NCBI GenBank assembly: GCA_021775005.1
Contig: JAJFIK010000067.1
Location: forward strand, 1-50,385
Length of the DNA: 50,385 nt
Reading direction: 5' to 3'
Source: Rhodospirillales bacterium
GTDB taxonomy: Bacteria > Pseudomonadota > Alphaproteobacteria > JAJFIK01
How positions within the stretch are numbered: position 1 is the stretch's first letter; each line of letters starts with the position of its first letter. Under the pieces are notes generated by a model that saw only the letters and a program-made list of their open reading frames with translations, had not been told where the DNA came from and did no database searches. Made by a program: the position numbers and the translations under genes. Shown here piece after piece: positions 19,345 through 35,726 of the stretch.

Positions 19345-19354
19345 TACGACGCAT

Positions 19355-19575
19355 GCGCGGGAGAGACCGACCCCTGTTGAGGGTTGGCGCCGAAGGAGCA
19401 ACCGCCCCGGAAACTCTCAGGCACAAGGGACCGCGCGCGCGTAACGTAACTCTGGAAAGAAGAGGTAGGCGATGTACCTGCCTCTCACCGAAGGGGTAAG
19501 CGGATAGGTTTGGACCCCCGGCGTTGGTGGGCGGGCGGCATCCGTGAAACTCTCAGGTCCCATGACAGAGGGGGC
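19355..19575 (+). promoter_or_regulatory. Tandem glycine riboswitch upstream of gcvT
   Basis: Two consecutive glycine aptamers. Aptamer 1 is closed by GCGCGG (19355-19360) pairing with CCGCGC (19431-19436), and contains GAGAG, GCCGAAGGAGCAA and the conserved AACTCTCAGGC. Aptamer 2 begins at CTCTG (19450-19454), paired with CAGAG (19566-19570), and contains CACCGAAGGGGTAAGC, AACTCTCAGG and ACAGAGGGGG. A helix formed by AGAGGTAGG and CCTGCCTCT lies between. These sequence blocks are the diagnostic core of the glycine riboswitch. In tandem switches of this kind glycine binding usually turns on the gcv genes, and here the full gcvT-gcvH-gcvPA-gcvPB set follows. This element accounts for most of the 382-bp gap between argS and gcvT. 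Confidence 0.95.
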
Positions 19576-32307: not shown

Positions 32308-34615
<2,308 letters not shown>

Positions 34616-34672: not shown

Positions 34673-34704
34673 TTTGGTCATCCTCTGGCTTGACCAGAGG
34701 ATCT
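34673..34704 (-). repeat. Palindromic element, left copy
   Basis: A 32-bp element containing a perfect stem: ATCCTCTGG (34680-34688) and CCAGAGGAT (34694-34702) around the 5-nt loop CTTGA, followed on its other side by TTTGGTC (34673-34679). Its reverse complement matches the right copy (35039-35070) at 30 of 32 positions, and the two differences form one compensated base pair in the stem. It ends 18 bp from the 3' end of the GIY-YIG gene. Confidence 0.85.
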
Positions 34705-34722
34705 ACTGTTATCTGCCGTGGG

Positions 34723-35019
34723 CTAGGCGCCGGTTATTTCGGGCCAAAGGTCGAGCCAGGTGGGGTTTGAATTTTCGATTAGTTCAATTTTCCAATCGCG
34801 GTTCCAATTCTTGAGCCGCTTCTCGCGATGGATCGCTTCACGTGGATCGGAGTGGACCTCAAAATAGACAAGCTGGTTCGTTTTGTATGTCGCTGTATAT
34901 CCCTTGGTGATCCCTTCGCGGTGTTCATAGACGCGCCTGACAAGATCGTTCGTCATACCGATGTAGATTGATCCGCGCGGTTGGTTCGCCATTATGTAAA
35001 CGTAGAACTGATCTGCCAT
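34723..35019 (-). CDS. GIY-YIG endonuclease-domain protein
   Basis: A 98-residue single-domain GIY-YIG protein of the small YhbQ-like type. The core has YVYIMA (residues 6-11, GIY equivalent), GSIYIGMTNDLVRRVYEHREG (17-37, YIG equivalent and the conserved Arg) and AIHREKRLKNW (62-72, with the conserved Glu). GIY-YIG domains cut DNA, often in mobile-element, repair or restriction proteins; the role of this short class is not settled. The gene sits between rnhB and ccrM, bracketed almost symmetrically by two inverted palindromic elements (18 bp and 19 bp away). The start codon lies inside a further inverted repeat. Context suggests a small mobile or repeat-associated unit. Confidence 0.9.
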   Translation of the reverse strand: MADQFYVYIMANQPRGSIYIGMTNDLVRRVYEHREGITKGYTATYKTNQLVYFEVHSDPREAIHREKRLKNWNRDWKIELIENSNPTWLDLWPEITGA

Positions 35020-35043
35020 GCCCTATGGCACCGTGGGCAGATC
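35010..35043. repeat. Inverted repeat spanning the GIY-YIG start codon
   Basis: GATCTGCC (35010-35017) and GGCAGATC (35036-35043) are exact 8-bp inverted arms with an 18-bp centre. The left arm touches the start codon (35017-35019) of the nuclease gene and the right arm overlaps the outer edge of the right palindromic element. If transcribed, this hairpin would hide the ribosome-binding region. Confidence 0.6.
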
Positions 35044-35070
35044 CTCGGGTCAAGCCCGAGGATGACCAAA
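35039..35070 (+). repeat. Palindromic element, right copy
   Basis: The opposite-orientation partner of the element at 34673-34704. Stem arms are ATCCTCGGG (35041-35049) and CCCGAGGAT (35055-35063) with loop TCAAG, then GACCAAA (35064-35070). Relative to the left copy a T-A pair is replaced by G-C, preserving the stem. Palindromes of this general sequence recur between genes in many alphaproteobacterial genomes as I remember them; I see no third copy in this window. It lies 17 bp from the rnhB stop. Confidence 0.85.
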
Positions 35071-35087
35071 TCTATTGGTTATATATC

Positions 35088-35726
35088 CTAACTCACCGCG
35101 CGCACGGGGGCGAAGCTCATGCGGTGGTGCGGCGTGGGGCCAAGCTCGCGCAGGGCTTTGAGGTGTATCGGCGCGCCATAGCCCTTGTTGGCGGCCCAGC
35201 CATAGCCTGGGTAGTCGAAGGCCAGCACTTGCATCAGCCGGTCGCGGGTGACTTTGGCAATGATGGAGCCTGCGGCAATGGAGAGCGAACGCCCGTCACC
35301 GCCTTTAACACATTTTGTTGGGCAGTTGAGTTTCGGCGCGTGGATACCGTCGATAAGCGCGAACTTCGCACCGCCGGGAAGCGCTGCATAAGCGCGCGAC
35401 ATGGCCAGCAGCGAGGCTTGCAATATGTTGATGCGGTCAATCTCGTCCACATCGGCCATGCCCACGCCGATCTCAGCGCAGTCCTGCAGCGCTTCAAATA
35501 GGTCTTCGCGTTTGGCCTCGCTGAGCTTTTTGGAATCGTTGATGCCGGGCGGCACATGGGCGGGGTCCAGAATAACGGCAGCAGCGACAACGGGTCCCGC
35601 AAGGGGCCCACGCCCGGCTTCATCAATGCCGCAGACGGGGGCAAAGCCGCATTCAGTTTCCAGGTGCAATGAGGGGCCCTTGGCGATGGGCTTTGCGCGC
35701 GCGATGAGGGTCGGGGTCTCTATCAT
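35088..35726 (-). CDS. rnhB: Ribonuclease HII
   Basis: This enzyme removes single ribonucleotides and RNA-DNA hybrids from DNA. It has 212 residues. The catalytic D35-E36 pair lies in CGIDEAGRGPLAGPVVAAAV (described by its key residues), and the second Asp is in ALIDG. NDSKKLSEAKR and GSIIAKVTRDRLM are conserved, and the C-terminal H-RMSFAPV stretch is normal. The start at 35726 gives an N-terminus with about 30 residues before the core. It precedes the GIY-YIG unit and ccrM on the same strand. Confidence 0.97.
   Translation of the reverse strand: MIETPTLIARAKPIAKGPSLHLETECGFAPVCGIDEAGRGPLAGPVVAAAVILDPAHVPPGINDSKKLSEAKREDLFEALQDCAEIGVGMADVDEIDRINILQASLLAMSRAYAALPGGAKFALIDGIHAPKLNCPTKCVKGGDGRSLSIAAGSIIAKVTRDRLMQVLAFDYPGYGWAANKGYGAPIHLKALRELGPTPHHRMSFAPVRAVS

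Follow-up and report, generated by a model that had tools for sequence, protein, structure and literature searches.

A small GIY-YIG nuclease gene nested in head-to-head CGTC-type REPs: a candidate enzyme for a widespread repeat superfamily

Introduction

Why should the gene for a small nuclease lie between two nearly identical palindromes that face in opposite directions? The question is raised by a contig of 50,385 nucleotides from a Rhodospirillales bacterium (JAJFIK010000067.1, assembly GCA_021775005.1), whose entire length is called "the window" here. An original prediction, made by inspecting the letters of this DNA, proposed that the palindromes and the nuclease belong together, much as REP palindromes belong with their RAYT transposase, and that the nuclease possibly disperses the palindromes. 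The analysis reported here asks what the palindrome is, how often it accompanies such genes in other bacteria, and what the enzyme might do with it.

The locus between rnhB and ccrM

The gene at the center of the question (34723..35019, minus strand) encodes 98 amino acids, which match the Pfam GIY-YIG family with a value of 2.4e-18. Its neighbors, on the same strand, are rnhB (35088..35726), which encodes ribonuclease HII, and ccrM (33373..34554), which encodes an adenine DNA methyltransferase. Inverted arms of 32 nucleotides lie at 34673-34704 and 35039-35070, with 334 nucleotides between them, at distances of 18 and 19 bp from the gene. The arms are 94% complementary (30/32), and the two positions at which they differ (T/G and A/C) are partners within a 9-bp stem, where a T-A pair is replaced by a G-C pair. 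The original description of the locus, including its single compensated pair, is thereby confirmed.

When folded as DNA, both copies give the same 9-bp stem and 5-nt loop, with energies of -8.9 and -10.1 kcal/mol (z -4.7 and -5.1). The pattern of the element is matched twice in the window and not once in 100 shuffles of it. The arrangement of palindromes and gene is non-random.

GC-rich hairpins near both ends of a small gene might, of course, be nothing more than transcription terminators or hairpins that stabilize its RNA. This explanation is judged very improbable, as no run of T follows the stems, and as the tagged and oriented form of the hairpin is rare beside other genes of the same contigs while recurring as dispersed dimers.

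Two further features of the window deserve record. Upstream of ccrM, at 34553-34605, several GANTC sites fall within a stretch that is conserved in both congeners examined (GACTCTTGACG...TTGACTCAGGATG); GANTC being the sequence that CcrM recognizes, their placement suggests methylation-dependent autoregulation. A glycine riboswitch aptamer (Rfam RF00504, 59 bits) lies at 19348-19443.

Identity of the palindrome

Judged by its sequence, the palindrome of the window is a CGTC-type REP, and hence is not new. The CGTC-REP superfamily, which occurs in at least five phyla, was described by Di Nocera, De Gregorio and Rocco (2013; PMC3733652), who included in it the neisserial dRS3 repeats and the RPE-4 and RPE-6 repeats of Rickettsia, and stated that it has no dedicated transposase; their paper does not mention GIY-YIG. 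Its members carry a CGTC tag (with variants TGTC and CCTC), a stem of 8-9 bp that starts with AT, a loop of 4-5 nt, and a CCA tail, and they occur in many copies, mostly as head-to-head dimers with their tags outside (PMC3733652).

The left REP of the window (34676..34705, plus strand) is built from the tag GGTC (34676-34679), the stem ATCCTCTGG (34680-34688), the loop CTTGA (34689-34693), the returning stem CCAGAGGAT (34694-34702), and the tail CTA (34703-34705). The right REP (35038..35067, minus strand) is inverted and reads, in the same order, GGTC, ATCCTCGGG, CTTGA, CCCGAGGAT, CTG. Both tags point away from the GIY-YIG gene. The window thus resembles the superfamily in its tag, in its 9-bp stem starting AT, in its 5-nt loop, in its short tail, and in favoring head-to-head dimers with tags outside. 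It deviates slightly, in two places. The GTC of the tag is present in both copies, but its first base is G, where 36 cassettes (that is, a GIY-YIG gene with its REPs) mostly have T or C; the tails are CTA and CTG, where most relatives have CCA. A search of Rfam gave no RNA family match at the locus.

Repetition is also a property of the superfamily, and here the genome itself can be consulted. Its 2.85 Mb, in 97 contigs, hold 17 copies of the palindrome at three mismatches or fewer, against none for a reversed control, and a covariance model finds 31; genome-wide counts of REPs rest on this pattern and this model. Gene-less REP pairs, oriented as in the window, are found at C14 and C85. The genome also holds five GIY-YIG paralogues. 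Three of these have the palindrome on both sides, its tags facing away from the gene, and the remaining two have diverged palindromes close by.

One paralogue (L020, at C45:1926-2216) carries YVD instead of YIG, a change of G21 to D that is the sole such case in 97 proteins, and it may be inactive, though still bracketed by REPs. A longer family of REP dimers (L011, L013, L132), in which the ends of the spacer are conserved (CTGGCTGA...TCAGCCAG) and the second palindrome has a long loop, recurs in the genus.

Association of gene and repeat across bacteria

A contig scan that used an alignment of the five paralogues supplied 80 loci, which span alpha-, beta-, and gammaproteobacteria, candidate phyla, and others, some labels on metagenome-assembled genomes (MAGs) being possibly wrong. 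Inverted repeats sought de novo across the gene (score of at least 16) are present in 43 of the 77 testable loci, and in 3 of 2574 control positions of the same contigs. A detector of the form GTC-stem-loop-stem-CY, which tolerates one mismatch per stem, finds 408 REPs in 1.27 Mb against 11 in locally shuffled sequence. Close to the gene, within 150 bp, there are 7.1 and 8.0 of them per kb, and at distances above 1.2 kb there are 0.13-0.2.

Tags point outward in the nearest pair of REPs at 38 of 80 loci, which makes this the commonest arrangement; the others number 9, 4, and 5. Head-to-head pairs in the 80 loci fall into two classes of spacing, one of up to 120 bp (90 pairs, gene-less) and one of 251-500 bp (41 pairs), and in the latter the query gene sits inside 36 of 41. 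Six other head-to-head pairs, 328-504 bp apart, hold another GIY-YIG gene in four cases, while the last two lie within coding sequence and are apparent false positives of the detector.

The association was also examined in 59 genomes of the class that were not chosen for their REPs. Of the 22 loci of close homologues there, 14 have a REP no more than 200 bp away and 8 are bracketed head to head. Distant GIY-YIG genes have one nearby in none of nine (six loci from the class sample, three from Bradyrhizobium genomes), so that the association is specific to a subfamily. At the level of whole genomes, a close homologue tends to go with many REPs: by covariance model, at least 10 are found in 15 of the 19 genomes that have such a gene, against 5 of the 40 that lack one (Fisher 9e-7; 6e-5 when only genomes of at least 2.3 Mb are compared), the genomes being mostly from different families, which limits phylogenetic dependence without removing it. 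Exceptions go both ways, as five of the 40 have at least 10 REPs and no close homologue, and four of the 19 show the reverse.

The association that the original prediction had expected is, by these measures (43/77 against 3/2574; 14/22 against 0/9), far above chance. It had placed the palindromes in alphaproteobacteria; they are indeed associated with the gene there, but the association reaches well outside that class. A search of the literature found no paper that links GIY-YIG nucleases to CGTC REPs, REPINs, or dRS3.

REPs do, of course, cluster, and insertions do gather in intergenic regions, as is generally known. One might accordingly regard the gene as a passenger in intergenic space rich in REPs, paired with them to no purpose. 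This is barely credible. In the loci searched, no other genes turned up in the head-to-head slot of 250-500 bp; GIY-YIG genes of other kinds show no association (the 0/9 above); and, within one genus, the clade of the enzyme tracks the type of repeat, as the next section describes.

One homologue, on a Planktothrix plasmid (L189, 2992-3276), has no detected CGTC REPs and stands between a restriction gene of the MmeI type and the DISARM gene drmA, surroundings that look like a defense island.

Coupling of enzyme clade and repeat type

Mapped on the protein tree, which has few columns and many weak forks, the class of the REP loop changes 13 times, against a mean of 22.3 and a minimum of 17 in 200 shuffles; relatedness of the hosts could be a source of this coupling. 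Within Bradyrhizobium, however, each of several GIY-YIG clades keeps its own REP sequence, sometimes within one genome.

The left and right stems of 38 bracketing pairs can be compared position by position. They are identical at 282 positions, and differ on both sides of the stem at 37 and on one side at 6, a count biased by a detector that allows one mismatch per stem and so favors paired stems. The original prediction had concluded from the compensated change in the window that the structure is under selection. The change does fit that view, as does the ratio of 37 to 6; however, copying of a hairpin would give the same pattern, quite apart from the bias of the detector.

Turnover at orthologous sites

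Two congeners retain the order rnhB-ccrM and are without the GIY-YIG gene. At this junction one of them has neither gene nor REP, an empty site of the kind that the original prediction had suggested looking for, and the other has a degenerate gene-less REP dimer. Neither chance-level association nor a bare gene in all relatives at this junction, the two patterns that would speak against that prediction, was found: the association is above chance, and the junction relatives are without the gene.

Elsewhere, turnover is likewise observed. A Bradyrhizobium junction has a flank common to 81 genomes, from which 30 loci were retrieved; many of these carry the cassette, L158 has it inverted, L153 retains a relic of it, and others lack it. 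Sphingobium plasmids carry a cassette in TomMM7A, TYG46, and TYG73, and Shinella carries one in two plasmids and lacks it in PSBB067. In-frame stops occur in several Bradyrhizobium copies of one group of paralogues (G059; L137, L139, L145), which means that decay of the gene with persistence of its REPs does occur.

Some of the sites that lack the cassette have a structure of their own. A single symmetric, double-tagged palindrome (GTC-stem-loop-stem-GAC) stands at the cassette position in Bradyrhizobium L154 and L155 and in Sphingobium TYG74 and TYG64. Symmetric palindromes of this form were recorded in L154, L155, L193, and L194, where relatives carry the GIY-YIG cassette. By its sequence, such a palindrome may be either a target or the scar of a deletion.

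Were it a target, the enzyme might be a homing nuclease, cutting the symmetric palindrome so that the cassette is copied in with one REP left on each side. The recurrence of the palindrome at two unrelated loci, one in Bradyrhizobium and one in Sphingobium, is what homing would deliver, and such palindromes are otherwise rare (about two real ones in 1.27 Mb). Deletion between short direct repeats inside the two REPs, however, leaves the same sequence behind, and L170 of Bradyrhizobium and TYG72 of Sphingobium, which also lack the cassette, have no palindrome at all. Homing is held to be improbable.

The unit of dispersal

The geometry of the nested gene is that of the gene-less REP dimers scattered through these genomes. 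Cassettes and gene-less dimers have the same outer boundary, the YGTC tag. At the base that precedes GTC, the outer flanks have a complementarity of 0.92 and 0.87 (for cassettes and gene-less dimers), and two or three bases out it is already declining towards background. A comparison of the outer flanks for inverted sequence, made with a target-site duplication in mind, showed nothing shared more than about 2 nt out from GTC.

Which of the two forms moves? In a relaxed search, whole gene-less dimers that are 92-98% identical turn up beside different upstream flanks (four in L070, for example); a strict search, for identical dimers in unrelated surroundings, returned none. Close copies of the gene cassette at different loci were not found, save for pairs at 80%. 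Because dimers recur and cassettes do not, the gene looks old and slow, and the dimers look more mobile. A slow gene with a more mobile repeat is also on record for RAYT and REPINs. A recent transposition of the cassette was considered and set aside, no close copies at new loci having been found. Dispersal of the palindromes by the nuclease, which the original prediction had raised as a possibility, keeps the standing of a hypothesis: near-identical cassettes at other loci were not found, while gene-less dimers recur.

On a Rhizobium plasmid (L182:2943-3878), a cassette is followed by two gene-less head-to-head dimers with a period of 271 bp, in a tandem array of REPs.

The enzyme and what it may do

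Seven catalytic positions of the protein (Y8, Y19, G21, R29, H33, E66, N85) are 99-100% conserved across 97 proteins. Its AlphaFold2 model has a mean pLDDT of 94, and the solved folds nearest to that model are UPF0213 protein BH0048 and, next, Slx1. Slx1 cuts branched DNA. A fold like that of Slx1 suits a hairpin substrate, and the modeled fold leads us to infer such a substrate for the enzyme of the window.

Other identities were tried. The protein does not match the model for homing endonucleases of group I introns, scoring 19.7 bits against TIGR01453, whose cut-off is 56, and the window holds no Rfam intron. PADLOC gave no match to a defense system, and matches that might indicate a phage origin were weak.

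The locus is, in the reading judged probable, an enzyme with its cognate hairpin repeat, where a small GIY-YIG nuclease, selective for structure and sequence, is nested in head-to-head CGTC-type REPs. Here, the palindrome would fold into a hairpin whenever its DNA becomes single-stranded, as in the template of the lagging strand, in repair, or in DNA that enters during transformation. The nuclease would bind the REP, recognizing the hairpin together with its unpaired GTC tag, and would nick the single strand there. Host repair or replication might then copy, delete, or invert the unit between two tags. Should cleavage drive dispersal in this way, gene-less dimers would spread and turn over, while the left REP, the right REP, and the enzyme would stay matched. 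GIY-YIG nucleases form no covalent intermediate and do not join strands by themselves; any mobility would accordingly depend on the repair systems of the host. This speaks against the reading, as do the genomes that have one partner and not the other, the deviating tags and tails of the window, and the failure to find recent cassette copies at new loci.

The repeats need not, of course, be moved by the enzyme. The nuclease might mainly cut single-stranded DNA that bears the repeats, in natural transformation or repair, and so limit or shape uptake, the repeats being its targets. A homologue in the gonococcus, 50.6% identical to the window protein and in the same protein tree, is placed in an array of dRS3 repeats, which speaks for this alternative, as does the failure to find recent copies of the cassette. 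So too would the effects on transformation that a 2025 study reportedly saw with a related nuclease, Ssn. It leaves unexplained why the gene is nested in a head-to-head dimer having the outer ends of gene-less dimers, and it sits poorly with a wide distribution that includes MAGs from candidate phyla, where competence is not established. A role confined to cutting its targets in this way is considered rather unlikely.

The reading of an enzyme with its cognate repeat can be carried further. The GIY-YIG subfamily is the best candidate partner of the CGTC REPs. It is conceivable, though doubtful enough to be offered tentatively, that it is their missing disseminating enzyme. REPs would then have been mobilized a second time, independently, through hydrolytic nicking of hairpins and repair by the host; the cassette that carries the gene would be the autonomous element, and the head-to-head dimers would be its non-autonomous copies. 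The nesting of one nuclease subfamily in such dimers, seen in several phyla, gives a superfamily reported in 2013 without a transposase a concrete candidate enzyme, and the question becomes testable in a laboratory strain. The neisserial dRS3 repeats are tied to the same enzyme family.

Comparison with known systems

A 2025 paper in Nature Communications reportedly describes Ssn as a widespread family of site-specific, single-strand GIY-YIG nucleases, studied in Neisseria meningitidis, where it is said to affect transformation and to have a target that is repeated. The homologue in the gonococcus is presumably Ssn. Since it shares 51% identity with the window protein and its gene sits within an array of dRS3 repeats, the gene in the window is probably a member of this family. 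Its product is a small protein of the GIY-YIG kind and a homologue of the Neisseria enzyme, and repeated cognate sequence is found both around the gene and across the genome; with Ssn, as reported, it shares a superfamily, a small size, and a repeated genomic target. Given that probable membership, no categorically new system is claimed. What may be new is the pairing of the Ssn family with the CGTC-REP superfamily as a whole, the place of its genes inside head-to-head dimers, and the turnover of the sites.

The nucleases of the UPF0213, Slx1, and UvrC types have their fold and catalytic residues in common with the enzyme of the window; they differ in that the distant GIY-YIG genes examined here stand without REPs nearby (0/9).

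A close parallel in organization is RAYT (TnpA-REP) with its GTAG REPs and REPINs, and the analogy drawn in the original prediction is supported. In both systems, tagged hairpin repeats flank an enzyme encoded by a single gene, and gene-less inverted pairs are dispersed. The window does not belong to the RAYT/GTAG system itself, as its enzyme is of the GIY-YIG family and its tag is GGTC. RAYT is an HUH tyrosine transposase and its tag is GTAG, whereas the enzyme of the window is a hydrolytic GIY-YIG nuclease with a tag of the GTC type. Were the disseminating role to prove true, this nuclease would have converged on the part played by RAYT from another catalytic fold.
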